NCBI GenBank assembly: GCA_028284945.1
Contig: JANQQJ010000024.1
Coordinates: 1-64,000 of the forward strand
DNA: 64,000 bases
From: Alphaproteobacteria bacterium
Lineage (GTDB): Bacteria; Pseudomonadota; Alphaproteobacteria; SMXS01
Reading direction: 5' to 3'
The notes below the pieces were generated by a model. That model was given only the letters and a program-made list of their open reading frames with translations, made no database searches and was not told the origin of the DNA. Both the position numbers and the translations under genes were made by a program. This document shows, piece after piece, positions 29,470 through 43,612 of the stretch. Position 1 is the stretch's first letter; each line of letters opens with the position of its first letter.

Positions 29470-30744
29470 ATGAGTACGCTTGAACGCGCGCCCGAAGCAA
29501 GCGGCGCTCCGCTTTCCGAATTCAACCCCCTCGACCGCCAGACGCAGGCCTGTCCCTATCCGTTTTACAAGACCATGCGGTCGGAATGTCCGGTGTTCCA
29601 GGCCCCGCAGACGGGCATGTACTACGTCACGAAGTATGAAGACATCCGCTTCATCAAGCGCAACCCGCAACTGTTTTCATCGAACATGGTGCCGACCGAC
29701 CGGGCCGGGTTGACCGAGGCGCAAAAGAAACATGCCGAGGTCTTTGCGAAATATGGCTGGTCTCACGTTCAGGCACTGCAGCGGACCGACCCACCCGCGC
29801 ATGACCGCTGGCGCAAACTGATTGACCGTACGTTTACAGCCACCCGTGTGAACGGCATGAAAGACTATGTGGACGAAATGGTCCACGAACTGATCGACGC
29901 GTTCATCGACAATGGCGAGTGTGAATTCGTACACGATTTCTGCATCCCGTTGCCTTGCAAGGTCATCGCCGATCAGCTGGGTCTGCCACGCGACGAATAT
30001 CTCAGCCTTAAAGCCTGGTCGGATGCAATGCTGACGCCAGGCGGCCTGATGGCAACGGACGAAGAAATCGTCCAATGCGCCTATACCGAGGTCGAAGCCC
30101 AGCACTTCTTCTACAAGGTTTTCGAAGATCGGCGCAAAAACCCCAAGGACGACATCATGTCGGCCCTGGTAAACACCCGGTTCGAGGGCGAAGAACCGCT
30201 TTCCATGCATGAGCTGCAAAATATGATGAACCAGCTCATTACCGGCGGCAACGAAACCACCACAAGCGCCCTGGCGCACGCCATGTGGAACCTGCTGAAG
30301 AACCCGGAGCAAATGGCCAAACTGCGCGCGGACCGGTCGCTGGTGAAGAATTTCGTCGAAGAAACCTTGCGATACGAGACGCCGGTGCTGGGGCTGTTCC
30401 GCAAGGCCACCCAGGATGTCGAACTGCGTGATGTAACGATCCCGAAAGACGGCATCATCTTCATGGCCTATGGCGCGGCCAACCGGGATGAAGAAAAATT
30501 CGACGATGGCGAAGAATTCGACGTCAGCCGCAAGAACGCAGGGGCACAAATCGCCTTTGGCATGGGCGCGCATTTCTGTCCTGGTGCCATGCTCGCCCGG
30601 CGGGAAATCTATTCGGCGTTCGAGATCATTCTCGACCGCATGGAAGACATCCAGCTCGCCCGCCCGCTCAATGAATTCACCCACGACCCGAGTATATTCC
30701 TGCATCAGCTGACAGAGCTGCCCATCACCTTCAAAAAGGCGTAG
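29470..30744 (+). CDS. Cytochrome P450 (second of tandem pair)
   Basis: A 424-residue paralogue of the 27.5 kb P450 with the same motifs: QRTDPPAHDRWR, VHELIDAFIDNGECEFV, GGNETTT, EETLRYE and FGMGAHFCPG with haem Cys370. Surface positions differ most. The pair may split substrate range or successive oxidation steps. A lipoprotein gene starts 5 bases after its stop. No redox partner is in the window. Confidence 0.96.
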   Translation: MSTLERAPEASGAPLSEFNPLDRQTQACPYPFYKTMRSECPVFQAPQTGMYYVTKYEDIRFIKRNPQLFSSNMVPTDRAGLTEAQKKHAEVFAKYGWSHVQALQRTDPPAHDRWRKLIDRTFTATRVNGMKDYVDEMVHELIDAFIDNGECEFVHDFCIPLPCKVIADQLGLPRDEYLSLKAWSDAMLTPGGLMATDEEIVQCAYTEVEAQHFFYKVFEDRRKNPKDDIMSALVNTRFEGEEPLSMHELQNMMNQLITGGNETTTSALAHAMWNLLKNPEQMAKLRADRSLVKNFVEETLRYETPVLGLFRKATQDVELRDVTIPKDGIIFMAYGAANRDEEKFDDGEEFDVSRKNAGAQIAFGMGAHFCPGAMLARREIYSAFEIILDRMEDIQLARPLNEFTHDPSIFLHQLTELPITFKKA

Positions 30745-30749
30745 GGCAA

Positions 30750-31232
30750 ATGCGGATCAACAGCTCAGGAATTGCATTTGCTGCACTTTTGCTCGTGGCA
30801 CCGGTCGCTGCCTGCGCGGAGGCTGACGCCGGCCCAGCCACCCCGCAAGAGGCCGTCGATGGGTTCTATGGCGCGCTGAACGCCATGTTCACCGGCGATC
30901 TGGAACCGATGAAGGCTGTTTGGTCGCACGCGGACGACGTGACCTATATGGGCCCGACGGGTGGCTTCCGGGTCGGCTGGGACGACGTGCTGGCCGACTG
31001 GCAGGGACAGGCCGACCAGAAGCTGGGCGGCAAGGTCGAGCCCAGCGATATTCACATCGTTACGGGGCCTGAGATCGCCATCGTCAAGAACAGGGAGCGT
31101 GGCGAGAATGTCGGCCCGGATGGCGATCCGCTGGTCGTCGAGCTGCGCGCCAGTTTGGTGCTGCGCAAGGAAGACGGCGTCTGGAAAGTGATCGGCCACC
31201 AGACCGACCTGCTGCCTTTCCTAAGCGAGTAG
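30750..31232 (+). CDS. Exported NTF2/SnoaL-like lipoprotein
   Basis: A 160-residue protein with a signal ending PVAAC, a probable lipobox (Cys22), then a DUF4440/SnoaL-type domain (AVDGFYGALNAMFTGDLEPMKAVWSHADDVTYMGPTGGFRVGWDDVLADW, DGVWKVIGHQTDLLPF). Its export separates it from the cytoplasmic NTF2-like proteins. It is coupled closely to the second P450 gene (5 bases). The function is unknown, perhaps binding or handling the substrate in the periplasm. Confidence 0.83.
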   Translation: MRINSSGIAFAALLLVAPVAACAEADAGPATPQEAVDGFYGALNAMFTGDLEPMKAVWSHADDVTYMGPTGGFRVGWDDVLADWQGQADQKLGGKVEPSDIHIVTGPEIAIVKNRERGENVGPDGDPLVVELRASLVLRKEDGVWKVIGHQTDLLPFLSE

Positions 31233-31240
31233 ATCAGGCC

Positions 31241-31975
31241 TTAGTCGACGTTGCTGATCTTGGACAGCATCTCGCGCGCCTGACCGGGCGTCTGACCGTA
31301 GAGCAGCGACTTCGCTTCGTCTGAAATCTGCCCCGGTGTGGCGGCGATATCCCTACCGATTTCATAAGCCCTTTGGACAGCGGGCCGTTCGCCCATCGCC
31401 TCGAACCAGCGCTTCAGGTTTGGCATAGCGTCAAGGTCCTGGCCCTGCAGCTCGTGCAGCGTGATCCAGCCCCAGTTAGCCATATCGGCGATCGAGTATT
31501 CGTTGTTGGCGATCCAGTCCTGCCCTTCCAGCTTCCAGTCTAGAAGATTCCAGAGCCGCGACACCTCGTTGGTATAGCGGTCGATGGCGTACTGGATTTT
31601 CTCAGGCGCATAGGCACGGAAATGATTGGCCTGTCCGCCCATCGGGCCGGTGCCACCCATCTGCCACATCACCCATTGCATAACCTTGGCGCGCTTGTAT
31701 GGATCCGATGGCCAGAACTGCCCGGTCTTTTCAGCCAGGTGGATCAGGATCGCCCCTGACTCAAACAACGCCAAGGGTTGGCCGTCCGGCCCTTTGACGT
31801 CGTGATCGACCATGGCCGGCACCCGGTTGTTCGGGCTTATGGCCAGGAACTCGGGTTCAAATTGCTGCCCGATCAGGATGTTGACCGGAACGACATTATA
31901 GTCGAGCCCACACTCCTCGAGCATGATGCTGACCTTCCAGGTGTTGGGTGTCGGGAAATAGTAGAGATCGATCAT
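31241..31975 (-). CDS. Glutathione S-transferase, Nu/YfcG-like
   Basis: A 244-residue thioredoxin-fold plus helical GST. The active-site segment FPTPNTWKVSIMLEE has the Thr-Pro-Asn of YfcG-type enzymes, which have disulfide-bond reductase activity. ISPNNRVPAMVD carries the cis-Pro loop, and ALFESGAILIHLAEK follows. It lies 12 bases after the MAPEG gene in one transcript. Together with ggt at 4.4 kb this points to glutathione chemistry. Confidence 0.93.
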   Translation of the reverse strand: MIDLYYFPTPNTWKVSIMLEECGLDYNVVPVNILIGQQFEPEFLAISPNNRVPAMVDHDVKGPDGQPLALFESGAILIHLAEKTGQFWPSDPYKRAKVMQWVMWQMGGTGPMGGQANHFRAYAPEKIQYAIDRYTNEVSRLWNLLDWKLEGQDWIANNEYSIADMANWGWITLHELQGQDLDAMPNLKRWFEAMGERPAVQRAYEIGRDIAATPGQISDEAKSLLYGQTPGQAREMLSKISNVD

Positions 31976-31987
31976 GGTGTTGGCTCC

Positions 31988-32641
31988 TTAGGTCAGGATC
32001 AGATAATAGGTCGACGCAACGACCATGTAGCTCAGGGCGAGCAGGGTTGATTGGATCCCTACAATCCGGCCAAAGCTCGCATAGGGATTGGTGGTATAGC
32101 CCCAGGCATGCAGATAGCGCGCGACCGTGAATATGGCGCCGCCGAAATGAACCATCAGCGCGGGCGCCCCGGACCATTCCAGCGCGATCAGCAACGCCAG
32201 CCCGGTGGGTACATATTCGGTGAAATTGGCATGGACGCGGGCGATCTGATCGCCCTTGGCATTGTCGTCCTCAGCCGACGAGATCGCGGCCTTTACACGG
32301 AAGTGCAGCACATTATATGTCAACAAGACCAACAGAAAGCCCAGCGCCGCGGCATAGTAAAGGCTGATCGGAACATCGATTCCGGCCGTGGGCACGCTCA
32401 GCCCGGGCCCCATCACGTTGGCACCGATGATCAGCACCACGCCCACCACAAGGCAGGCCCAGGCCCCACGCATGAAATTCATGAAGATGCCAATGATCAT
32501 CTCGGGCGGCTGATGTTCCTGACCGGATGGATCTTTGCCATAGGGTAGAATGCGCCGATAGGCATAGGTGATGCCAAGGCCGACCATAATGAACGCCGCG
32601 CCCAGCGCCGTGCCGAACACGCTGATATTCAGGTCTTCCAT
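31988..32641 (-). CDS. MAPEG family membrane protein, long form
   Basis: A 217-residue protein whose C-terminal 130 residues match MAPEG (ARVHANFTEYVPTGLALLIALEWSGAP, RYLHAWGYTTNPYASFGR), preceded by an extra helical region of about 85 residues with two membrane segments. Family members conjugate glutathione to lipophilic compounds or reduce peroxides. The RVHANFTE segment is the glutathione-site signature. First gene of a two-gene operon with the GST. Confidence 0.9.
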   Translation of the reverse strand: MEDLNISVFGTALGAAFIMVGLGITYAYRRILPYGKDPSGQEHQPPEMIIGIFMNFMRGAWACLVVGVVLIIGANVMGPGLSVPTAGIDVPISLYYAAALGFLLVLLTYNVLHFRVKAAISSAEDDNAKGDQIARVHANFTEYVPTGLALLIALEWSGAPALMVHFGGAIFTVARYLHAWGYTTNPYASFGRIVGIQSTLLALSYMVVASTYYLILT

Positions 32642-32652
32642 ACTCTCCCCCC

Positions 32653-32681
32653 TTGGTGGACCTTCAGCTTGGTTCTACTAT
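32653..32681 (+). promoter_or_regulatory. Promoter of the acyl-CoA dehydrogenase pair
   Basis: TTGGTG (32653-32658) and TACTAT (32676-32681) with a 17-base spacer in the 70-base divergent gap between the MAPEG and acyl-CoA dehydrogenase genes. Confidence 0.5.
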
Positions 32682-32711
32682 AAACGAGGCGAGCTGGAGG
32701 TAGGGAGCCTT

Positions 32712-33866
32712 ATGACCGATCTTTCTTTGACATTTGAACCACGGGCGCTGGCACCGGAACAGGAAGCGATACGGGATGAAATCCGGGCTTTTCTGAAAGA
32801 TGAATACGACCGGGGCACTTTTGCTCGGGCACAAGAAGCGATGGCCAAACATGATTTCGGCTTTTCTGAACGCCTCGGTGCAGCCGGTTTCATCGGCATG
32901 ACCTGGCCGGAAGAGTTCGGGGGCCGGGGCCTCAGCTTTCTTGATCGCTATGTCGTGACGGAAGAATTAATGGCGGCAGGCGCTCCCTGCGGCGCCCACT
33001 GGGTCGCCGACCGGCAGAGCGGCCCTTTACTTATTCGCTATGGCACGCCCGAACAGCGCGAGCGCTTCCTGCCCGAGATCATCGCCGGCAAATGCTACTT
33101 CTGCATCGGTATGTCCGAGCCCGACAGCGGATCCGACCTGGCCTCGATCCGCACAACTGCCAAGAAGGTCGACGGTGGCTGGCTGGTTAACGGCACCAAG
33201 CTGTGGACCTCCAACGCCCATGTGTCGGATTACATGATCGCGTTGGTGCGCACCGAGCCACCATCGGATGACCGGCATGCCGGTATGAGCCAGATGCTGA
33301 TCGACCTGAAATCTGACGGCATCGATATCCAGCCGGTCAAGAATCTGGCCGGGCATCACCATTTCAACCAGGAAATGTTCACTGACTGTTTCGTGCCCGA
33401 CGACATGGTCGTCGGCACCGTCGGCAATGGCTGGGAACAGGTGATGAGCGAACTGGCATATGAGCGCAGCGGACCTGAACGGTTCTTGAGTACGTTTCAA
33501 ATGCTTGTCGAACTGGTGCGCGCCGTCGGCCCCGACCCGGACGAGATAGAGGCCCGCGCGATTGGCAGGCTTACGTCCCACCTGATGACCCTGCGCAATA
33601 TGGCGCTTACCGTCGCCGGGCAGCTGACCGATGGCGAACTGCCCGCAACAGAGGCGGCACTGGTCAAGGATCTGTCGACCAACTTCTGCAAGGAAATTCC
33701 TGAAGTGGCCCGGCTGGTCTATCCGCCTGATGCAGGCGCGGGCGACAACATGAAATATGAAGAGGCGCTGGCGACGGCAACGCTCTACGCGCCATCCTTT
33801 ACCATTCAGGGCGGTACCCGTGAGATTCTGCGCGGCATGATCGCCCGCGGCCTGGGACTTCGGTGA
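32712..33866 (+). CDS. Acyl-CoA dehydrogenase family protein (larger subunit of a probable pair)
   Basis: A 384-residue FAD enzyme that forms an alpha,beta double bond in acyl-CoAs. FGGRGLSFLDRYVVTEELMAAGAP, CIGMSEPDSGSDLASIRTTA and IQGGTREILRGMIARGLGL mark the family. YERSG near residue 247 carries a Glu in the position used as the base in FadE-type enzymes. ATG 32712 follows GGAGG and GGGAG. The next gene is a second, shorter ACAD 10 bases on, the arrangement of heteromeric ACADs of steroid side-chain degradation. Confidence 0.93.
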   Translation: MTDLSLTFEPRALAPEQEAIRDEIRAFLKDEYDRGTFARAQEAMAKHDFGFSERLGAAGFIGMTWPEEFGGRGLSFLDRYVVTEELMAAGAPCGAHWVADRQSGPLLIRYGTPEQRERFLPEIIAGKCYFCIGMSEPDSGSDLASIRTTAKKVDGGWLVNGTKLWTSNAHVSDYMIALVRTEPPSDDRHAGMSQMLIDLKSDGIDIQPVKNLAGHHHFNQEMFTDCFVPDDMVVGTVGNGWEQVMSELAYERSGPERFLSTFQMLVELVRAVGPDPDEIEARAIGRLTSHLMTLRNMALTVAGQLTDGELPATEAALVKDLSTNFCKEIPEVARLVYPPDAGAGDNMKYEEALATATLYAPSFTIQGGTREILRGMIARGLGLR

Positions 33867-33876
33867 GGGTGCTGTC

Positions 33877-34905
33877 ATGAATGAACTCCGCACCATGATC
33901 TTGGATACGGCGGATCGCATCTTCCGCGACAAATGCGATCAGACCTTGATCGATGCCGCAGAGGGGGGCGAGTGGCCTGCTGATCTTTGGCAGACGGTCG
34001 AAGACGCCGGATTGGCCGTCGCAGCCGTCCCGGAAGAACAGGGCGGCGCCGGAGGCACCATCGGCGATGGGTTGGCGCTGTTAAAAGTCGCTGGCCGCTA
34101 TGCCGCACCCCTGCCCCTGGCAGAAACTTTTCTGGCCGGGCATCTGTTGGCGCAGGCGGGCGCCAGCGTGCCTGCGGGTCCGCTGACGGTGGCGCCGGTG
34201 CATCGGGGCGATCCCTTCGATGTGCCCGGCGGCGCGCTGCACGGCGTGGCATCGAAAGTGCCCTGGGCCGCACAGGCGGTGGGACTGGTGGTTGCCCTGC
34301 CGGATGGGGTCGCGTTGGTTGACCCGGCGGACTGTAGAATAGAACCCGGCAGCGCCGTTTCCGGCGATCCGCGTGATACGGTCATTTTTGACGGGGCTGC
34401 CGTTAAGGTCCATGCCCTGGATGACGCACCCGAACGCCTCTGGAGGCTCGGTGCCCTGACACGGTCGGTACAGATGGCAGGCGCGCTCGAGGCGATCCTC
34501 GACATGACAACGCAATATGTGAAGGACCGGGTGCAATTTGGCCGGCCAATCGCCAAGTTTCAGGCCGTGCAGCAGTCGCTCGCTGTACTCGCCGGGCAGA
34601 CGGCAGCGGCCTCTGCCGCTGCCGAAAATGCGATTGCGGCGGTTGAGGCCGGTGGCGGCGAAGCGCAGATCGCGGTCGCCAAGGCCCGTTGTGGCGAGGC
34701 GGCCTCGTCCGCTGCAGAGATTGCCCATCAGGCGCATGGCGCCATCGGCTTCACCCACGAATATGCGCTGCATCAATTCACGCGGCGGCTGTGGACCTGG
34801 CGCGATGAATTCGGCGGCGAGCCATATTGGCAGGGTGAACTGGGCCGGATGGTCGCTAAAGCCGGCGCAGACAATCTTTGGGCCTTTGCGACCAGGTCGT
34901 CCTGA
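33877..34905 (+). CDS. Acyl-CoA dehydrogenase family protein (smaller subunit of a probable pair)
   Basis: A 342-residue ACAD-like protein. The N-terminal half is divergent (WQTVEDAGLAVAAVPEEQGGAGG); the C-terminal half keeps YVKDRVQFGRPIAKFQAVQQ and AHQAHGAIGFTHEYALHQFTRR, which contact FAD. I cannot point to a catalytic Glu equivalent to the one in the first gene, so it may be the non-catalytic FAD-binding partner of an alpha2beta2 enzyme. The 10-base spacing supports co-translation. Confidence 0.9.
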   Translation: MNELRTMILDTADRIFRDKCDQTLIDAAEGGEWPADLWQTVEDAGLAVAAVPEEQGGAGGTIGDGLALLKVAGRYAAPLPLAETFLAGHLLAQAGASVPAGPLTVAPVHRGDPFDVPGGALHGVASKVPWAAQAVGLVVALPDGVALVDPADCRIEPGSAVSGDPRDTVIFDGAAVKVHALDDAPERLWRLGALTRSVQMAGALEAILDMTTQYVKDRVQFGRPIAKFQAVQQSLAVLAGQTAAASAAAENAIAAVEAGGGEAQIAVAKARCGEAASSAAEIAHQAHGAIGFTHEYALHQFTRRLWTWRDEFGGEPYWQGELGRMVAKAGADNLWAFATRSS

Positions 34906-35007
34906 GTTCACTCGGCTCCGCGCTGGCCGAAGTGTTCTGGCAGACACGCACCCGCGGCCTTGCATGAAAGCTGGCGACCGCCAGTCTGTTAATCCGGGAC
35001 CATATTG

Positions 35008-36231
35008 ATGCGGCTTGTTGCGGTGGAAAAGGATACATCACCGTTGCTCGCAGGCTTTATGCGCGTAAGCGGCACCATCCGCTTCGACGGGAGCGAGACC
35101 GAGACCATTTGGTTTGATCTTCCGTCTGACCAGGAAACTTCGATCAATGATCAGGGAGACCCGTGGGCCGTCCTGCTGATGCCGGAAGCTGCCATCCGTG
35201 GCGAGACTCTTGAGATGGATCTGCAGGTCGACCCTGTCCTGATCGACAATCTTCGGGGTCTGCATCGATTGTGGCAGAGCTGGTACGGGTTTATCCGCCC
35301 AACCGAAATCATCGCGCCCAAAGGCAAATTTGCGCTCAAAGGAACCGAAACCGCGCAGTTCTTTTCCGGCGGCGTGGACTCATTTTTCTCACTAAACTAT
35401 GGCGCGGCGCGGCCTGAGTTCCCATCGGTCAAGCCAACCAGCAGCCTGTTGACCCTTTGGGGATGCGATGTGCCGCTATCCAATCCAGACGCGTTTGAGT
35501 CCGTGCGCACGCTTGCCGAAGACACGGCCCGTCTCTACGGCATGGACTGCGTCCCTATCGCTTCGAACATGACAAGCCTTAAAAGCAGCAAACTCTACTG
35601 GGGTTCGCTGACCTATGGATCCTGCTTTGTCGCGGCGGGCCAGTTGCTCTCAGGCCGTTTTCAGAACCTTGTTTTCGCCTCTTCTCTCGACCTTGGGACG
35701 CCCGAACCAGAGGGGTCTAATCCGCTCGCTGATCCTCTGCTCAGCAGTTCCCAGTTGCGTGTCATCCATCAAGGCGCGGCCTTCAAGCGGATCGAGAAGA
35801 CAGAGTTCATTGCGTCTGACCCGCAAGTACTCTCCAGGCTGCGTGTCTGTTGGGCAATGGGCGAAGCAACAAATTGCAGCCGCTGCGAGAAGTGCCTGCG
35901 GACAATGGGTACACTTGATCTATTGGGCGTCAAGGATCAGGCCACGTCATTCGACTGGTCGTCTTACAGCCCTGGCGCACTGGCAAAAGTATATTTGCCA
36001 TCGCCGCTACATGCTGCCCTTTTTCGCGAAATAGGTGATACCGCAAGGTCAAGAGGGCGCGATGACCTGGCAAAGGCCATCACAAAAAGCCTGCGACGGT
36101 CCTTTGTGCTTCGTTATGCCGTTGTGAAACCCGCAAAAAGGATCTGGTCGTTGCTGAGTCGATTCCCGGGTCTCGAGGGTTATGTCATGCCTCTGCGGCG
36201 GTTTCTGAGCCGGCAGCTTCTGAACCGCTAG
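35008..36231 (+). CDS. QueC-like PP-loop ATPase with extra domains, paralogue 1
   Basis: A 407-residue protein of unknown role. Residues 1-110 form a conserved N-terminal domain (IWFDLP, INDQGDPWAVLL, DPVLIDNLRGLHRLW). The PP-loop is FFSGGVDSF (SGGVDS at 120-125), the AMP-forming ATP-pyrophosphatase signature. Cys281, Cys290, Cys293 and Cys296 (C-x8-C-x2-C-x2-C) match the zinc site of 7-cyano-7-deazaguanine synthase QueC. The last 70 residues are basic and amphipathic. ATG 35008 is the first Met of the conserved N-terminus. It lies 102 bases after the ACAD pair. QueC itself is much shorter, so this is a relative, not QueC. Confidence 0.75.
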   Translation: MRLVAVEKDTSPLLAGFMRVSGTIRFDGSETETIWFDLPSDQETSINDQGDPWAVLLMPEAAIRGETLEMDLQVDPVLIDNLRGLHRLWQSWYGFIRPTEIIAPKGKFALKGTETAQFFSGGVDSFFSLNYGAARPEFPSVKPTSSLLTLWGCDVPLSNPDAFESVRTLAEDTARLYGMDCVPIASNMTSLKSSKLYWGSLTYGSCFVAAGQLLSGRFQNLVFASSLDLGTPEPEGSNPLADPLLSSSQLRVIHQGAAFKRIEKTEFIASDPQVLSRLRVCWAMGEATNCSRCEKCLRTMGTLDLLGVKDQATSFDWSSYSPGALAKVYLPSPLHAALFREIGDTARSRGRDDLAKAITKSLRRSFVLRYAVVKPAKRIWSLLSRFPGLEGYVMPLRRFLSRQLLNR

Positions 36232-36257
36232 GAACGCCAAGATCGCCCGATTGCGAC

Positions 36258-36731
36258 CTAATACGTGCCGCCCAGCTTAGTGTGATCCCAGCTGATGGTT
36301 TTTACCGGCGTAAAGCGGATAATCACCCGCTTACGCGCGGCATAGCCGATCTGTTCGATTTCTTCCGGCGGAAAATCTACCTTTGCCGGATCGCGCTGGC
36401 GGCGAATGTTCTTCATGGTTTCCACCACGAAATCATTGTCGTCGATGATCTCGGCCTCGGCTTCCATCATCACGGATTTCAACTCTTCGTACTCTCCGCC
36501 GGCTTCGATCAGCAGCGCTGCTTTGGGATTACGCTTGAAATTCAGCACCTTCTGGCTGGCGCCATAGGTGGAGACCAGAAAACGCCCTTCGGGATCGGTA
36601 TAGAAGAACATCGGCATCGGGTGCGGATAACCGCCGGGGCCGACCGAGACGATAATCAGCGTCTTTTCCGCCCGCACGAAGTCGTACAACTCGTCATCGG
36701 TCATGGTGATTTGATCGCGCCTTGAGGCCAT
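36258..36731 (-). CDS. Pyridoxamine 5'-phosphate oxidase-like (PPOX) protein
   Basis: A 157-residue split-barrel flavin/deazaflavin-binding protein: LIIVSVGPGGYPHPMPMFFYTDPEGRFLVSTYGASQKVLNFKRNPKAALLIE is the PPOX core. Members use FMN, F420 or haem-related cofactors; which one cannot be decided. It sits in the opposite orientation between the two PP-loop paralogues. ATG 36731 has GAGGGA upstream. Confidence 0.88.
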   Translation of the reverse strand: MASRRDQITMTDDELYDFVRAEKTLIIVSVGPGGYPHPMPMFFYTDPEGRFLVSTYGASQKVLNFKRNPKAALLIEAGGEYEELKSVMMEAEAEIIDDNDFVVETMKNIRRQRDPAKVDFPPEEIEQIGYAARKRVIIRFTPVKTISWDHTKLGGTY

Positions 36732-36883
36732 GGCTTTCCCTCTTCAATCCAGTTCAGGTTTCTATCACTAAGCGGCACCGGCAAGCATGTCGAGGGGCGA
36801 TAGACATCGCCATTTCTATGCGCACGCTGTTCGGGATAAAGTCGACTCGGCCTGAATGTAACCGCCAAAAAGATCATCTGCCG

Positions 36884-38143
36884 ATGCGCCTCGTTTCTGT
36901 CGAAAGGAGTGAGTCACCCCTGCTGCCCGCTGCCATACGGGTTGCCGGGACCGCGCAATTCGATAACGGCGAGACCCAGACGATCTGGTTCGACGTTCCA
37001 TCGGAACATGCGCCGGCAATCAACGATCAGGGCGATGCCTGGGCGGTCTTGCTACTACCCGATGCCATTGTCCGGCGTGAAAATCTGGTCCTGGACGTAC
37101 CGGTTGATCCCGTATTGCTCGACAATTTGCGGGGGCTGCAACGCCTCTGGCAGGCCTGGTACAGTTTTGTCCATCCCGTTGAGATCCAAGCCCCTGCCGC
37201 GCGCCTTGAACAGGTTGGGCGTGAAACCGCACAGTTCTTTTCAGGCGGTGTCGACTCGTACTTCACCCTGCTCTACGGACTGGAACAGCAGGAATATCCC
37301 GGGATTCAGCCAACGTCCTGCCTGCTGACCCTGTGGGGTTTCGACATATCGATCGATAATCCTGACGCCTTTGCGGCTGTTCGCGGTCTATCTGAGAAAA
37401 CTGCCGAGCAGTTTGGATTGGAATCTATTCCTATAGCGACAAACGCGCTCGCGCTGTCATGCAACAAGCGCTATCTCGGTCGGCTGACCCAGGGCGGTGT
37501 TATTGCGGCATCAGGGCTGTTGCTTTCCAAGCGGTTCGAAAATCTTCTGATCGCTGGCTCATTCGACGTGGGTGCGACCTTCCCCTGGGGCTCTCACCCC
37601 TTGGTTGAACCACTGTACAGCACGTCCCAGACGCGCGTTATTCACCATGGTCAGGCGTTTGGGCGAATCGAAAAAACAACCCTGGTTGCACGATCATCGG
37701 ACGCGCTGAGCCAGTTGCGCGTGTGCTGGTCGAATCGCGATCATTCAAACTGTAGCCGTTGCTCGAAATGCATCAGAACAATGGTGACTCTCGATCTCTT
37801 GGGCGCAAAAGACCGTGCGACAAGTTTTGACTGGACTGACTATAGCCTGGCCAACATCGCAAAAACCTATGTCCCTTCCAGAGCCCATGCTGACTTGATC
37901 GCCGAAATTCGCGATATGGCCCGTGAACGCAGCCGGCATGATCTGGTTCAAGCGCTTGATCGATGTCTGCGTCGATCAATTCTGCTGCGTTACAGTGTTG
38001 TCGGTTTCGCCCGGTTTGCTTGGTCCAAAATGAAGGCTGTGCCCTGGTTACGGCGGGCCGCAACGCCACTTTACGGAACGCTCAAACGCCTGTTGATGAA
38101 AAGCGAGACGGGCGGCCGCAAAAAGATTGCGCCGGACACGTGA
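36884..38143 (+). CDS. QueC-like PP-loop ATPase with extra domains, paralogue 2
   Basis: A 419-residue paralogue of the 35.0 kb gene. By eye the first 300 residues align without a gap and about 170 are identical. The PP-loop SGGVDS (120-125) and the Cys set 281/290/293/296 are at the same positions. The basic C-terminal tail is kept but diverges, ending with a Gly/Lys-rich segment. ATG 36884 is picked by alignment with paralogue 1; the frame stays open to 36722. It ends directly against the convergent TetR gene. An amide- or nitrile-forming ligation with ATP-to-AMP cleavage is plausible; the substrate is unknown. Confidence 0.75.
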   Translation: MRLVSVERSESPLLPAAIRVAGTAQFDNGETQTIWFDVPSEHAPAINDQGDAWAVLLLPDAIVRRENLVLDVPVDPVLLDNLRGLQRLWQAWYSFVHPVEIQAPAARLEQVGRETAQFFSGGVDSYFTLLYGLEQQEYPGIQPTSCLLTLWGFDISIDNPDAFAAVRGLSEKTAEQFGLESIPIATNALALSCNKRYLGRLTQGGVIAASGLLLSKRFENLLIAGSFDVGATFPWGSHPLVEPLYSTSQTRVIHHGQAFGRIEKTTLVARSSDALSQLRVCWSNRDHSNCSRCSKCIRTMVTLDLLGAKDRATSFDWTDYSLANIAKTYVPSRAHADLIAEIRDMARERSRHDLVQALDRCLRRSILLRYSVVGFARFAWSKMKAVPWLRRAATPLYGTLKRLLMKSETGGRKKIAPDT

Positions 38144-38809
38144 TCACGCCGCGCTGGACTTGGCCGCTTTGGCATTCTTGTTCAGGGTCTTGAGTTTTCG
38201 GATAACGCTGTCGCGGTGCCGGCCTTTCAGCGCCCCGGCCAGCAGAGCCAGCACCACCTGGACATTGCCGATCCGCAACCCGTTATCGTCGATATCTTCA
38301 GCGGCCCAGCGGGCGACCACGCCATAGGCCATGGACGTCATCTCTCCGGCAAGGGCCTCGATATCGACCCAGTTCTCCAGCGCGTCTTCAGCATCCAGCC
38401 GCTCGAGCTGCTCGATCCAGAAGGCGGTGGGGATATCGTGCAGCTGCTGGCGTACGGGGCTGCCCGGTTCGCAGGCGAAGTAGATGCGGCACATGGTCTT
38501 TGCATAGGCCGGCACGCGCATGATCTCTTTATAGGCAGCGAAATTGCGCGCCTCGACGATGGCGGCGATATCGTCGCTCTCGGGCTCGACAGTCATGCCG
38601 TTCACCCGTTCCTCAAACACTTGCGAGACGGCTTCGGCGACCAGCCCGTCCTGTCCGCCAAACAGATTGTAGAGCGTGCCTGTGGCAACACCGCTCTCCT
38701 TCGCCAGCGCGCGCATGGTGAAATCCCCATCGTTGCGCGCCATCATGTCGAGCGCGGTTTCGACGATCCGGGCCCGCCTGGCGATCATGGTCTCACTTTC
38801 GTACTTCAT
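38144..38809 (-). CDS. TetR family transcriptional regulator
   Basis: A 221-residue repressor-type protein. The N-terminal helix-turn-helix is FTMRALAKESGVATGTLYNLFGGQDGLVAEAV (about 30-61); a ligand-binding all-helical domain follows. The C-terminus is Lys-rich. It is divergent from a P450 gene, and a perfect 18-base palindrome lies in the gap, so it probably represses the P450 gene and is released by a pathway ligand. Its stop abuts the paralogue 2 stop. Confidence 0.93.
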   Translation of the reverse strand: MKYESETMIARRARIVETALDMMARNDGDFTMRALAKESGVATGTLYNLFGGQDGLVAEAVSQVFEERVNGMTVEPESDDIAAIVEARNFAAYKEIMRVPAYAKTMCRIYFACEPGSPVRQQLHDIPTAFWIEQLERLDAEDALENWVDIEALAGEMTSMAYGVVARWAAEDIDDNGLRIGNVQVVLALLAGALKGRHRDSVIRKLKTLNKNAKAAKSSAA

Positions 38810-38842
38810 GGTGTCACCTTACCACTGCTATTCGGGAATGTG

Positions 38843-38889
38843 TTGACCAATATTGGAACATGTTGTAGATAATTGAAACGCGTTTCAAT
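38843..38889 (+). promoter_or_regulatory. P450 promoter with two operator palindromes (probable TetR site)
   Basis: TTGACC (38843-38848) and TAGATA (38866-38871) are 17 bases apart. Immediately after the -10 is ATTGAAACG-CGTTTCAAT, a perfect 18-base palindrome (38872-38889) covering the expected transcription start. A second palindrome CCAATATTGG (38847-38856) overlaps the -35. A TetR gene diverges from here, so repression by occlusion is the natural reading. Confidence 0.7.
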
Positions 38890-38914
38890 ATTGCGATTCG
38901 CCGGGGAGCGACAG

Positions 38915-40153
38915 ATGAACAAGGAAATTACAGGCACCCTTATGGATCCCGCGATCCAGCAGTGCCCTTTCGACCACTACGCCGAGCTGCGTGAGAACGC
39001 GCCGGTCTACCAGATGCCGGACACCGGCTTCTTCATTGTCACCGGCTACGATTTGCTGATGCAGGTGATGAAGAACTTCAAGGTCTTTTCGAACCTGGCG
39101 CCCGGCGGCCAGCGCGCTGGCGTCACGTGCGAGGAGGCCGAGCGGATCATCAAGGAAGAGGGCTATGGCCGGTTCATGCCGACCATCGTCAACAACGACC
39201 CGCCGGGCCACACCGCCTATCGCAGCTTGGTCAATGACGCGTTCCGCGCGGGCCGCATTCGGCAGATGGAAGAGTATATCGACGATGTGGTCGAAGACCT
39301 GGTTTCCAAGTTCGAGGACCAGGCCGAGTGCGAGGCGGTTGCCGATTTGGCGGTCCCGGTGCCGATGTATGTCATCGCCGATCAACTCGGCGTGCCGCGT
39401 TCGGAGTTCAAGAAGTTCAAGGCCTGGTCGGACGCCTGGGTGATCGGGCTGGGCCTGCCGGTGCCGGATGAAAAACTGGTCGAGGCCGCCGAGCTCGTTG
39501 TCGAGATGCAGCACTACATGATCGCGCGCATGAAAGAGCGCCGCGAAGATCCGCAGGACGACATGATGACCGACCTGGTCCAGGCGACCTATGACGGCGA
39601 GCGGCCCCTGACCGACAAGGAGGTTCTGTCGATCGTCGAGCAGATCCTTGTCGCCGGCAACGAGACCACCACCAATGGTATCGCCAATGGCGTCATGCTG
39701 ATGGCGCAGGATCAGGAGCTGCAGAATCGTCTGCGCGCCAACCCGGACCAGGTGAAGCCATTTGTCGAAGAGGTGCTGCGCTATGAATCGCCTGTGCAGG
39801 GCCTGTTCCGGTATGTCACCGAAGACACTGAACTGGGCGGCGTCGCGGTCCCGAAGGGATCGACCGTGATGATTCGCTACGCATCGGGCAACCGGGATGA
39901 AACCAAGTTCGAAAGCGCCTGCGCCTTCGACATGGACCGTAAGAACAACGGTGCACATATGGCGTTTGGGTCCGGGACCCATCACTGTGTGGGCTCACAG
40001 CTCGCCCGGGCGGAGATGCAGCAGTCGTTCAAAGCCATGCTGAAACACTTTTCAAAATTTGAGCTGGCCTGCGACCCGGCGGAAATTGTCTACCATCCCA
40101 GTTTCGCGCTGCGCGGCCCCGTAAAGCTGCCCCTTCGGCTCGAAAAAGCCTAA
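38915..40153 (+). CDS. Cytochrome P450 (third, TetR-linked)
   Basis: A 412-residue soluble P450 distinct from the 27.5/29.5 kb pair. I-helix VAGNETTTNGIANG (about 248), EEVLRYE, and haem loop FGSGTHHCVG with Cys at about 358. ATG 38915 has GGGGAG at good spacing. A SRPBCC gene follows 26 bases on and a Rieske oxygenase after that, so several oxygenases share this stretch. Redox partners are absent. Confidence 0.95.
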   Translation: MNKEITGTLMDPAIQQCPFDHYAELRENAPVYQMPDTGFFIVTGYDLLMQVMKNFKVFSNLAPGGQRAGVTCEEAERIIKEEGYGRFMPTIVNNDPPGHTAYRSLVNDAFRAGRIRQMEEYIDDVVEDLVSKFEDQAECEAVADLAVPVPMYVIADQLGVPRSEFKKFKAWSDAWVIGLGLPVPDEKLVEAAELVVEMQHYMIARMKERREDPQDDMMTDLVQATYDGERPLTDKEVLSIVEQILVAGNETTTNGIANGVMLMAQDQELQNRLRANPDQVKPFVEEVLRYESPVQGLFRYVTEDTELGGVAVPKGSTVMIRYASGNRDETKFESACAFDMDRKNNGAHMAFGSGTHHCVGSQLARAEMQQSFKAMLKHFSKFELACDPAEIVYHPSFALRGPVKLPLRLEKA

Positions 40154-40179
40154 TCTGTGGCCGGAACGGGGAGAAGCAA

Positions 40180-40602
40180 ATGACAACCGTCAAAGTAGAT
40201 ACGGTGCTGGACGTTTCAGCAGATGCCGCCTGGACGGTCTTGGCCGACTTCGGTGGGTTTCTGAATTGGGCCGGCGATGGATCCAGCACGGCTGAGATCG
40301 AAGGTGACGGCATCGGCATGATTCGCCATCTGGAGATGCCGGGGATTGGCAAGTTCGGTGAGAAACTGACCGTTCTGGATCATGACAGCAAAACGCTTGC
40401 CTATCAGGTCGCCTATGGAGCGCCATTGGGCATGGAAAGCTATGGCGCACAGGTCACGCTGGTCGACAACGGCGATGGCACCTGCGCGGCCAACTGGGTC
40501 GGAGAATTTGAAGGCGGTGATGAGGCCGCTATTTCAGAGGGGCTGAAAGGCTCTTATGCGGGGATGTCAGACAGTCTGGCAGCCTATGTGAAGGGTCAGT
40601 AG
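40180..40602 (+). CDS. SRPBCC (START/Bet v1-like) family protein
   Basis: A 140-residue ligand-binding fold beginning VDTVLDVSADAAWTVLADFGGFLNWAGDG, followed by IRHLEMPG and TVLDHDSKTLAYQV beta strands and a long C-terminal helix. Members act as polyketide cyclases, lipid carriers or binding proteins; catalytic residues cannot be named. It is coupled to the third P450 gene. A 7-bp GC stem (40601-40607 / 40620-40626) follows the stop but has no T-tract. Confidence 0.86.
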   Translation: MTTVKVDTVLDVSADAAWTVLADFGGFLNWAGDGSSTAEIEGDGIGMIRHLEMPGIGKFGEKLTVLDHDSKTLAYQVAYGAPLGMESYGAQVTLVDNGDGTCAANWVGEFEGGDEAAISEGLKGSYAGMSDSLAAYVKGQ

Positions 40603-40696
40603 CCGCCGCCGGACCGCTTGGCGGCTGGACGCATTTGTGTAAAATCAGCACGCGCGCTGAAATCAGCGGCGCGGTTGGGGAAAAGGAGAACGGGTA

Positions 40697-41974
40697 ATGG
40701 ACGCTCAGGAAATCGCAGAACTTCGCGAGTTGATGGACTATGAAGGCCGCCGCAAAGGGCCGCCCGAAGGTTATCCAAAATTCCCCGACATGCCGGCCGG
40801 GCGTTACAACTCGGAAGAGTTCTACAAGCTGGAAAAAGAAGAGTACTGGACCAAGGTCTGGATGATGGCCGGCCATATGGACGAGATCCCTGAGGTCGGC
40901 TCCTACAAACTTTGGGAAATGTCCGGTGAGCCGATGCTGATCGTGCGCGGCAAGGACAATGTGGCCCGCGCCTTCTACAACACCTGCAGCCACCGCGGCG
41001 CACCGGTGATTCAGGAAGCCTATGGCCAGGCCAAAGGCGGGCTGGCCTGTAAGTACCATGGCTGGACCTATGATTTTGAAGGCAACCTGATCAACCTGCG
41101 CGACAAACGCGATTTTGTGGACCTGGATATGGATTGCCGCGGCCTGTTCCCGGTGCGGACCGAGCAGTTCGGCAAACTGATTTTCATCACCCTTGATGAC
41201 GATGCCATTCCGCTGCGCGAATTCCTGGGACCGGTCGCCAGCCAGTGGGACGATTTCGACTTCGCCAACACCCGGCTGGTCCACCACTACACCTGGAATC
41301 TGGAGTGCAACTGGAAGATCGCCATGGAAGCCAACATGGAGGTCTATCACGTTAAGTCGATTCACCCGGATACGGTGGATGCGGGGCTGGACTACCGCAA
41401 GAACGTCAACACGCTCTATCCACACGGGCATTCCCGCATGGTGGCCCCGACGCCAGAGGCGGTTCTGGCCGCCATGCCGCCGAAACCAGACCATATCCCG
41501 GAGATTGAGTCGGTCGGAGAGCTGCCGCGAACGACGACCTATTCCTTCCACGTAGACCCAAATCTTGTGTCGCCCATGGGACAGACCCTGTTCCCCATGC
41601 TGTTCTTCTGGCCGGACGGGCTGCGCAAGACCAAATATGAGCTGTACTGGATCGGCGCCGACTGGGGCGACGGTGAGATGCCGCAAGAGTGGAAAGACCA
41701 GATCGACTATTTCAATGTGGTCATCACCGAAGACACCCAGTTTGGTGACTGGATCCAGAAATCCGCGGACTCCATAGCCTTTAAGGGTGTGCCGCTCTGC
41801 TATCAGGAATCGCGGATTTATCACACGCACGAAAATATCGACCGGGTGATCGGACTGAACAAGGTGCCGGACCACCTGGCTGTAAAACAGGTGCTGGGTG
41901 AAGACTGGATCTATCCGAACGATTCCAAGCTGCGCCTCGCTGAATCCGAAAAAATGAAACAGGCGGCCGAGTAA
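40697..41974 (+). CDS. Rieske non-haem iron ring-hydroxylating oxygenase, alpha subunit
   Basis: A 425-residue terminal oxygenase. The Rieske 2Fe-2S ligands are Cys97-x-His99 and Cys118-x2-His121 (CSHRG...CKYHGW). The mononuclear iron His pair lies in NMEVYHVKSIHPD (about His218 and His223), with a conserved acid further on. It would insert oxygen into, or demethylate, an aromatic or aliphatic ring substrate. No small subunit, ferredoxin or reductase is adjacent. It is followed 5 bases on by a RidA-family gene. Confidence 0.94.
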   Translation: MDAQEIAELRELMDYEGRRKGPPEGYPKFPDMPAGRYNSEEFYKLEKEEYWTKVWMMAGHMDEIPEVGSYKLWEMSGEPMLIVRGKDNVARAFYNTCSHRGAPVIQEAYGQAKGGLACKYHGWTYDFEGNLINLRDKRDFVDLDMDCRGLFPVRTEQFGKLIFITLDDDAIPLREFLGPVASQWDDFDFANTRLVHHYTWNLECNWKIAMEANMEVYHVKSIHPDTVDAGLDYRKNVNTLYPHGHSRMVAPTPEAVLAAMPPKPDHIPEIESVGELPRTTTYSFHVDPNLVSPMGQTLFPMLFFWPDGLRKTKYELYWIGADWGDGEMPQEWKDQIDYFNVVITEDTQFGDWIQKSADSIAFKGVPLCYQESRIYHTHENIDRVIGLNKVPDHLAVKQVLGEDWIYPNDSKLRLAESEKMKQAAE

Positions 41975-41979
41975 CACCT

Positions 41980-42396
41980 ATGGACGCCCACAAAATTACT
42001 CACTATCCGGACCCCTATGAGGCGTTCGGGATCGCCCAGGGCTATCGCTATGGCAATCTGATCGTCCTGTCGGGCCAAATCGCCATGACAGATGATGGCA
42101 AGACGGTGGGCGAAGGCGACATCGCGGCCCAGGCCGAACAAGCCTTTGCCAATATCGAAGCGATCCTGAATGAAGCCGGGTCCAACCTGCGCAATATCAT
42201 CAAGATGACCATCTATGTGACCGACATGAGCAAAACCGATGAGTTGATGCCGGTCTACAACAAGCTGTTCGGCAAACCACCGCCCGCGATGACCATGGTC
42301 GAGGTTTCTGCGCTGGCCATGCCGGAGATCATGGTCGAGATCGATGCAATGGCAATCACCGGCGGCATTCCCAGGCCCTCACTGCCGCCATATTAG
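41980..42396 (+). CDS. RidA/YjgF family protein lacking the catalytic Arg
   Basis: A 138-residue trimer-forming fold: YGNLIVLSGQIAM, EQAFANIEAILNEAGSNLRNIIKMTIYVTDM. True RidA imine deaminases carry Arg in a PxRxxVEV motif; here the stretch is PPPAMTMVEV, so the Arg is absent. It therefore belongs to a non-canonical Rid subgroup, often found in catabolic operons. Five bases after the Rieske gene. Confidence 0.9.
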   Translation: MDAHKITHYPDPYEAFGIAQGYRYGNLIVLSGQIAMTDDGKTVGEGDIAAQAEQAFANIEAILNEAGSNLRNIIKMTIYVTDMSKTDELMPVYNKLFGKPPPAMTMVEVSALAMPEIMVEIDAMAITGGIPRPSLPPY

Positions 42397-42424
42397 GGCC
42401 AACAAGATAAAGACGAAGCGTCGC

Positions 42425-43612
42425 GTGAGGGCATCTGTTCTGCTCGCTCTGTTTGCCGTGCTTTCTATCGGCTGGGCGGCAGCAGAGGACAGCTACTCTC
42501 TACCCGAATCCCCTGCCGAGGTATCGGCACCCGATGTCATCGTCGAGAATTTCCGGGCGATGGATCGGCTTTATCGTACCGAGATTGTCCGTGCCGGTGG
42601 CCAGCCTTCGACGCTGCTGCGGGCCCCACAGCCGCTACCCGATACATATGTGTATAAGGGCAACGCTCACAGCGTAGCGGAGTTCATCGACCAAACCGAC
42701 ACGACCGGCCTGCTGGTGATCAAGGGCGGGGTTATCGTCCATGAGAGTTACTACCTGGGTGAGACGGAGACAGATCTTCATATTTCATGGTCTGTTGCGA
42801 AGTCCTTTGTTTCCGCGCTTGTAGGCATTGCCCTCAATGAGGGTCTAATTGAGAGCATTAATGACCCGGTGACCAATTATCTGCCACAGCTTGTAGACAG
42901 CGGTTACGATGAGGTGCCGATCAAGCACATCCTGCAAATGTCATCCGGCGTCGATTTCACGGAAGACTATGCCGATTTTGAGTCCGACGTGATGCGCATG
43001 GCCATGGCCGTTGCCGGTGGATCACTTGATGCGGAGGTGGCCAAGATCAAGCCCGGCATCGAACCCGGCACTAGAAACCGCTATGTCAGTGCCGACACGC
43101 ACGTGCTGGGCATGCTATTGACGGCTGTGTCAGGCAAATCCGTCGCGGCGTACATGGAAGAAAAGCTGTGGCATCCGCTTGGTATGGAAGCCGACGCCAA
43201 ATGGATTCTCGATGGCGTGGGCTCGACCATGGCCATGGGCGGTCTCAATGCCACTCTTCGCGACTTTGGCCGATTTGGATTGCTCTATCTCAATAAAGGC
43301 CAATGGGACGGCAACCAGATTGTACCCGCCGAATGGATAAGGGCGTCAGTGACGCCCGATGCGCCGCATTTGTTGCCCGGCGACAACTCACTTTCGGATT
43401 CACGATTTGGCTATGGTTATCAATGGTGGATACCAGAGAACCCGCGCGGCGACTTCATTGCCATCGGCGTCTTCAACCAGTTCATCTATGTTGACCCGGC
43501 GCATGATGTAGTGATCGTCAAAACTTCCGCCTATGCGGACTATCTGACAGACTATGACTCTGAGGAACGGACCGTCGCGGCCTTCCAGTCACTTGCGGAG
43601 CAGCTGAAATGA
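42425..43612 (+). CDS. Serine hydrolase of the beta-lactamase/NylB type, exported
   Basis: A 395-residue class C beta-lactamase-fold hydrolase. The signal peptide is at the N-terminus (LLALFAVLSIGWAAA). The nucleophile motif is S-V-A-K (Ser123, Lys126), the Tyr motif Y-V-S (220-222), with INDPVTNYLPQLVDSGYD and ILQMSSGVDFTEDY as in 6-aminohexanoate-dimer hydrolase NylB and EstB esterases. Start GTG 42425 puts the signal peptide first; the frame is open further upstream into the Rid gene. Substrate could be an ester or amide. Confidence 0.87.
   Translation: MRASVLLALFAVLSIGWAAAEDSYSLPESPAEVSAPDVIVENFRAMDRLYRTEIVRAGGQPSTLLRAPQPLPDTYVYKGNAHSVAEFIDQTDTTGLLVIKGGVIVHESYYLGETETDLHISWSVAKSFVSALVGIALNEGLIESINDPVTNYLPQLVDSGYDEVPIKHILQMSSGVDFTEDYADFESDVMRMAMAVAGGSLDAEVAKIKPGIEPGTRNRYVSADTHVLGMLLTAVSGKSVAAYMEEKLWHPLGMEADAKWILDGVGSTMAMGGLNATLRDFGRFGLLYLNKGQWDGNQIVPAEWIRASVTPDAPHLLPGDNSLSDSRFGYGYQWWIPENPRGDFIAIGVFNQFIYVDPAHDVVIVKTSAYADYLTDYDSEERTVAAFQSLAEQLK

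Follow-up and report, generated by a model that had tools for sequence, protein, structure and literature searches.

Tandem QueC-like genes of an alphaproteobacterium belong to a glycan-linked, so far uncharacterised branch of the PP-loop superfamily of QueC and QatC

What is the function of two QueC-like proteins encoded almost side by side in a genome region without queuosine genes? The pair, P0001 and P0002, lies in a stretch of 64,000 nucleotides, hereafter the window, which covers positions 1 to 64,000 of contig JANQQJ010000024.1 (assembly GCA_028284945.1, Alphaproteobacteria bacterium). The first-pass annotation called it a new ATP-dependent ligase pair, possibly membrane-associated, modifying perhaps a small molecule, a glycan or a protein. 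The general shape of this proposal holds. The pair represents a real, conserved and uncharacterised branch, so far unnamed and linked to glycans, of the QueC/QatC PP-loop superfamily, and it is new only in this sense, the superfamily itself being known. Our reading, to which we assign a probability of about one half, is that P0001 and P0002 are diverged tandem copies from an unnamed family of PP-loop ATP pyrophosphatases with a QueC-fold core and QatC-like extensions, and that they would activate and amidate a carboxylate of a surface polysaccharide.

The features of the two genes are as follows (L and G numbers below are our handles for loci and genomes).

35008..36231, plus strand: QueC/QatC-fold PP-loop protein 1 (P0001), 407 aa, intact open reading frame (ORF) with an ATG start
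35008..35343, plus strand: N-terminal extension of P0001, about 112 residues, without a Pfam match, kept in relatives, W92 invariant
35365..35382, plus strand: pyrophosphate-binding loop SGGVDS of P0001, residues 120-125, read from the sequence and kept across the family
35848..35895, plus strand: four-Cys (zinc-type) motif C-x8-C-x2-C-x2-C of P0001, residues 281-296, where none of the 72 aligned relatives departs from the four Cys or from N289
35956..36228, plus strand: C-terminal helical extension and basic amphipathic tail of P0001, net charge +10 over the last 45 residues
36884..38143, plus strand: QueC/QatC-fold PP-loop protein 2 (P0002), 419 aa, intact ORF with an ATG start
36884..37219, plus strand: N-terminal extension of P0002, about 112 residues, element order b-b-b-a-a-b-a, modelled alone with a predicted local distance difference test score (pLDDT) of 95
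37241..37258, plus strand: pyrophosphate-binding loop SGGVDS of P0002, residues 120-125, read from the sequence and kept across the family
37724..37771, plus strand: four-Cys (zinc-type) motif C-x8-C-x2-C-x2-C of P0002, residues 281-296, where none of the 72 aligned relatives departs from the four Cys or from N289
37832..38140, plus strand: C-terminal helical extension and basic amphipathic tail of P0002, net charge +9 over the last 45 residues

The mechanical ORF of P0002 begins upstream, at TTG 36722, but the gap-free fit to P0001 and the match with relatives make ATG 36884 the best start. The two proteins are 55% identical over 406 residues without a single gap (BLASTP, E 4e-166); hence the similarity spans the whole length, and of the earlier estimate (300 gap-free residues at about 57%) the absence of gaps stands, while the extent and the identity are corrected. 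The Cys positions are the same in both, C281-x8-C290-x2-C293-x2-C296.

The relatives provide the main functional evidence. A pattern scan of 84,980 species genomes yielded at least 515 confirmed relatives (candidate stretches), and the neighbourhood sample consists of 80 genome loci plus plasmids. A gene for polysaccharide pyruvyl transferase (PPT) is situated one or two genes away in 24 of the 80 loci and at none of the 321 gene positions at a distance of six or more genes (Fisher p 1.7e-8, ExoV-like PPTs not counted). With the ExoV-like PPTs added, the counts are 27 of 80 loci within two genes and one of 321 positions farther away, at seven genes. Most PPT genes near relatives (22 of 26) are on the same strand. 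Among annotated plasmid loci, PPT directly adjoins the relative in Gloeothece, Azospirillum and Gemmobacter, and stands beside a tandem pair in Priestia; in Nostoc, genes for a flippase, glycosyltransferases and O-antigen ligase are near the relative, and glycan genes are also near the Pseudobutyrivibrio copy. In two sets of unannotated loci (111 and 105 neighbours) glycosyltransferases, polysaccharide flippases and PS_pyruv_trans top the Pfam tallies, which also contain Wzy_C, Wzt_C and sulfotransferase. An NCBIfam scan around the closest relatives of the pair found exosortase-type genes and TIGR03108 (WbpS-type) amidotransferases; the Rugosibacter copy adjoins a gene for an exosortase-associated acyltransferase.

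In some genomes the two activities are encoded by a single ORF. In one of the Dehalococcoidia (L146:3111-5285) an ORF of 724 aa has the QueC-like part first and an ExoV-like PPT second, the second half matching S. meliloti ExoV and annotated PPTs. A gammaproteobacterial metagenome-assembled genome (L137:2615-4558) has a 647-aa ORF with PPT first and the QueC-like part second; since the linker region reads oddly, this may be a read-through of two genes. A protein from the Planctomycetia (L081) starts with a sulfotransferase-type motif HYPKTAGTSLQ and a proline/alanine-rich linker, followed by the QueC-like part; the sulfotransferase-like domain was recognised by eye from the motif, and searches did not confirm it. 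An 846-aa ORF at L122 is not counted as a heptosyltransferase fusion, as its N-terminal part reads by eye as an antisense shadow of an rfaQ-like gene. Ten other long ORFs (L029, L030, L077, L082, L095, L097, L134, L138, L141 and L145) were dismissed as well, being long mainly from an upstream run of the frame.

As relatives occur both beside PPTs and fused to them, the family probably modifies surface sugar chains, and we consider it likely that it builds or decorates surface polysaccharides, often together with polysaccharide (ketal) pyruvyl transferase. Thus, for the family, the three targets proposed initially are narrowed to the glycan.

The family is found in many phyla, haloarchaea included. 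The best relatives among those listed, 38-40% identical, are from Rugosibacter, Undibacterium, Methylobacillus and the Gemmatimonadetes. Plasmids of Azospirillum, Gemmobacter, Gloeothece, Nostoc, Priestia and haloarchaea carry relatives with 25-30% identity, annotated as 'hypothetical protein' on all 20 records listed. The distribution is patchy in our samples (5 of 385 alphaproteobacterial genomes and 10 of 398 genomes of the Pseudomonadota), and a genome scan with P0001 as the only query gave no relatives. Neither were any found in the phage and viral collections searched, and carriage of the pair by phages or viruses was therefore set aside.

In an alignment of 72 rows the residues G122, D124, C281, N289, C290, C293 and C296 are invariant. 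P0001 departs from nearly invariant columns only at position 186 (T186 to S), and P0002 from the commonest residue only at the nearly invariant places 198 and 242; judging by these residues, both proteins are likely to be active. A loss of the PP-loop or Cys residues in most members, which would have refuted the ligase proposal of the first-pass annotation, is not seen: they are kept in nearly all members. The additional N- and C-terminal parts are real too, and the tail is a property of the whole family. The median net charge of the last 45 residues in 110 sequences is +7, compared with +0.5 expected from composition, it is +5 or more in 92 of the 110, and the hydrophobic moment is 0.58 vs 0.42. 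Such a basic amphipathic tail fits binding to an acidic membrane surface, so that the suggested membrane association gains in plausibility while staying a prediction from sequence.

An AlphaFold2 model of P0002, built on the fetched relatives, has pLDDT 93.2 and a predicted template modelling score of 0.90. It features four strands and three helices ahead of a five-stranded core, and C-terminal helices at 333-348, 352-384 and 387-409. Foldseek gives a probability of 1.00 both for its match to Cap9 (9nto; TM score 0.65, referred to the target) and for those to several models of viral QueC; against the PDB no match reaches E 0.001. By this confident model P0002 has a QueC/Cap9-fold core, and the model together with Foldseek places SGGxDS within a Rossmann-like five-stranded core, as is characteristic of the PP-loop ATP pyrophosphatase superfamily. 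The N-terminal domain of P0002 modelled alone has no confident match among solved structures; the extension belongs to no Pfam family, yet it is conserved in relatives. Neither protein scores above the Pfam, NCBIfam or PADLOC cut-offs, and sequence searches of solved structures gave weak matches, with QatC first at E 0.096. In the profile comparison with the family, QatC scores 90% (P 1.5e-6), QueC 44% and WbpG 39.5%. The domain DUF6395 (PF19932), itself of unknown function, matches P0002 with 18 bits at a cut-off of 25, and six of ten relatives match it weakly around the Cys motif (best E 0.003). A DUF6395 protein is also encoded a few genes away from the tandem QueC-like pair of Priestia (L013:16264-16645); given the weak match, DUF6395 and the pair may be distantly related.

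The following mechanism would be consistent with these data. The enzyme would be held by its basic amphipathic C-terminal helices at the inner membrane, the site of assembly of lipid-linked sugars. ATP would be bound by the SGGVDS loop and used to adenylate the sugar carboxylate, pyrophosphate being set free as it is in QueC (PMC13329287); the fold and the motifs point to such ligase chemistry. Ammonia or an amine would then displace AMP, yielding an amide, and the four-Cys zinc site would be structural. A uronic acid, or the carboxylate in the pyruvate ketal that PPT makes, would suit the context best as substrate. For uronamides in surface glycans there is a precedent, WbpS, an ATP-dependent amidotransferase of the AsnB type (PMC7468200); WbpS and eps_aminotran_1 (TIGR03108) resemble the proposed system in the kind of reaction, an ATP-dependent amidation of a sugar carboxylate, and in the exosortase/exopolysaccharide setting, but come from a different family. 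Given a role in glycans, we rate amidation of a carboxylate at even odds. A more specific scheme, which we consider speculative, is that PPT adds the pyruvate ketal and its QueC-like partner then amidates the ketal carboxylate, or makes a nitrile of it, in many phyla and sometimes within one fused protein, QatC being a side branch of the larger glycan family. We know of no such two-step, ketal-then-amide modification of sugars.

Each known family that could accommodate the pair, namely QueC, QatC, Cap9 and WbpG, was considered, and the pair fits none of them. QueC turns a carboxylate into an amide and a nitrile using ATP and ammonia (PMC13329287), and is defined by the motifs SGGxDS, C(x)8CxxCxxC, YxQxHxxE, VPxRN and YPDC (PMC13329287, Biochemical Journal 2026, a survey of PF06508). 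The pair has the first two, the classical QueC motifs according to the same survey, as well as the core fold, which would suit additional preQ0 synthases. However, YxQxHxxE, VPxRN and YPDC are found in 0, 1 and 0 of 110 family sequences (the window pair included), whereas nine canonical QueC controls from the same class have them in 9/9, 7/9 and 9/9 cases; hence the family lacks the deazaguanine pocket while retaining the ATP and Cys sites. Further, PF06508 does not match P0001 or P0002 at E 1, the proteins are almost twice as long as QueC and have no queD/queE neighbours, and the genome already has a canonical QueC of its own, encoded on a different contig (G000:C11:62799-63446, E 1.2e-79, 267 bits). 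An extra QueC is thus hardly credible. QatC is the nearest known relative both by profile and in architecture, as follows from its top profile match, the shared layout of extensions and a common HP dipeptide. In QatC, a QueC core at strands 5-9 is combined with N- and C-terminal extensions (PMC13279940); the pair shares the core, SGGxDS, four Cys and extensions of similar size, and the strands and helices before the core in the P0002 model agree with the count implied by the numbering in that paper. The dipeptide is part of TRT(T/A)HP in QatC and of (W)GSHP in the family, at about the place of YPDC in QueC. All this would suit an enzyme that modifies a partner protein, activating a carboxylated small molecule by adenylation and then joining it to the N-terminus of that protein, perhaps as a defence against phages. 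On the other hand, the Cys spacing is x19 in QatC and x8 in the pair (about x6-x15 in relatives), the motif ends with CGxCxxRR in QatC and with CxKCxRT in the family, so that instead of C(x)19CGxCxxRR both window proteins carry C(x)8CxxCxKC, and NF041925 (QatC, cut-off 280 bits) matches neither the pair nor anything in its genome. The neighbours are acyl-CoA dehydrogenase, PNPOx, TetR and P450 genes, with no qatA, qatB or qatD and no CD-NTase; PADLOC finds nothing for the pair and no more than an isolated weak match (DpdF) in 72 relatives; the family is absent from the phage and viral collections, and its members have glycan genes as neighbours instead. Modification of a protein is therefore improbable. 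Cap9 of type IV CBASS (cyclic-oligonucleotide-based antiphage signalling system) shares the core fold, but membership is rejected, as Cap9 is about 185 aa long, retains the QueC motifs and adjoins a CD-NTase gene, none of which holds for the pair, and no PADLOC match was found.

A different chemistry in the same glycan setting has a modest chance: an amidine could be formed on an N-acyl sugar, as by WbpG/PseA, or a thiocarboxylate, or an amino acid or amino sugar could be ligated to the carboxylate. The N-sugar amidotransferases WbpG/PseA (TIGR03573) are PP-loop enzymes of surface-glycan clusters, those of the WbpG type serving O-antigen synthesis and being placed in the same superfamily (PMC13329287), and some relatives of the pair are flanked by an ATP-grasp or GNAT gene. 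At that, the WbpG-type profile match is weak, with the P-loop region alone aligned, the extensions differ, the sampled WbpG-type proteins lack the searched C-x2-C-x2-C pattern, and TIGR03573 matches neither the pair nor any protein of the window's genome. The locus itself suggests another role, recruitment to the surrounding catabolic cluster, where a carboxylic acid arising in the degradation of lipids, steroids or terpenoids would be amidated or activated. The pair is flanked by acyl-CoA dehydrogenases and a TetR/P450/Rieske set, with a glutathione S-transferase (GST) gene nearby, and P0001 starts 102 bases after an acyl-CoA dehydrogenase gene on the same strand; moreover, a distant relative from another alphaproteobacterium (L027:6179-9307) adjoins a thiolase gene and a gene for an OB-fold protein that resembles ChsH2 of steroid degradation. 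However, L027 belongs to a different clade of the tree, and L067 and L087, the loci most closely related to the pair, have an exosortase or polysaccharide context. In addition, the G+C content at third codon positions (GC3) of both genes, 0.61-0.64, is lower than in all neighbours measured (0.70-0.80), which suggests a separate arrival of the pair. We consider the catabolic role rather unlikely.

Returning to the amidation of surface polysaccharides, several observations besides the catabolic surroundings weigh against it. The 80 genome loci were picked by motif patterns, so retention of the motifs is partly selected, although plasmid relatives obtained by plain tblastn also keep them. In 53 of the 80 loci no PPT is present within two genes, and none is annotated in the stretches read from haloarchaeal plasmids. 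Comparison with a set of labelled genes detected no glycan genes in the window, and no labelled ones surround the single PPT of the genome, which is located away from the pair (G000:C24). No biochemistry on any member of the family was found. As no glycan gene lies at the locus, a role in glycans is deduced from the family and the own role of the window pair is less certain; whether this pair still acts in glycan amidation is an even call.

The remaining gene of the locus lies between the two copies, as the first-pass annotation had it.

36258..36731, minus strand: PNPOx_N (PPOX-type flavin) gene, PF01243, E 4.3e-13

It is probably a bystander: genes of PNPOx families do not figure among the most frequent neighbours of relatives, and a functional link to the pair was dropped for this reason. 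The absence of queuosine, Qat and CBASS genes near the pair is confirmed in the window. The low GC3 and the absence of relatives from all nine genomes examined in the window's own family fit horizontal acquisition, which is probable. The region 29470-43612 of the window is a catabolic-looking cluster of two cytochrome P450s, an acyl-CoA dehydrogenase pair, GST and a Rieske oxygenase, with RidA-like and serine-hydrolase-like proteins recognised by eye; it is possibly involved in steroid or terpenoid breakdown.

The 2026 survey of the QueC superfamily was built on members of PF06508, and describes no branch with the QueC-type Cys motif in glycan clusters (PMC13329287); the window pair, unmatched by PF06508, is outside that membership. 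A literature search, too, found no glycan-linked QueC-like family. If the glycan role is correct, hundreds of 'hypothetical proteins' in bacterial and archaeal polysaccharide clusters would gain a testable enzyme class, and QatC a plausible metabolic cousin. The PPT fusions offer a concrete pair of activities for a joint assay on polysaccharides that are defined and genetically tractable.

Tandem copies are present in 11 of the 80 loci (about 14%), always on the same strand, and in the tree several pairs, namely those of the window, Undibacterium, Desulfobulbaceae and Priestia, are independent sister duplications. Thus, tandem pairs arose repeatedly and the window pair as such is not special. 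The two copies of a pair may act together as a heterodimer, or each may have its own acceptor. In three genomes of the Pseudomonadota (L050, L051 and L052), two old, well-separated branches of the family are encoded by neighbouring genes, like two subunits. An alphaproteobacterial genome of 1.9 Mb, 100% complete (G118; L024, L025, L026), has four QueC-like copies, two of them in tandem. In the Nostoc plasmid (L010 and L058) the copies flank a gene for polysaccharide tyrosine autokinase, and transposase genes surround the second copy. Finally, Priestia megaterium S1 has a separate circular 'plasmid' of 2633 bp (L204, NZ_CP130479.1) with one QueC-like copy and a piece of the other and with no annotated replication gene, while its 57-kb plasmid (L205, NZ_CP130478.1:2319-2939) retains a truncated copy adjoining the PPT gene. 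Either the assembly was split here, or recombination between the tandem copies excised a circle.

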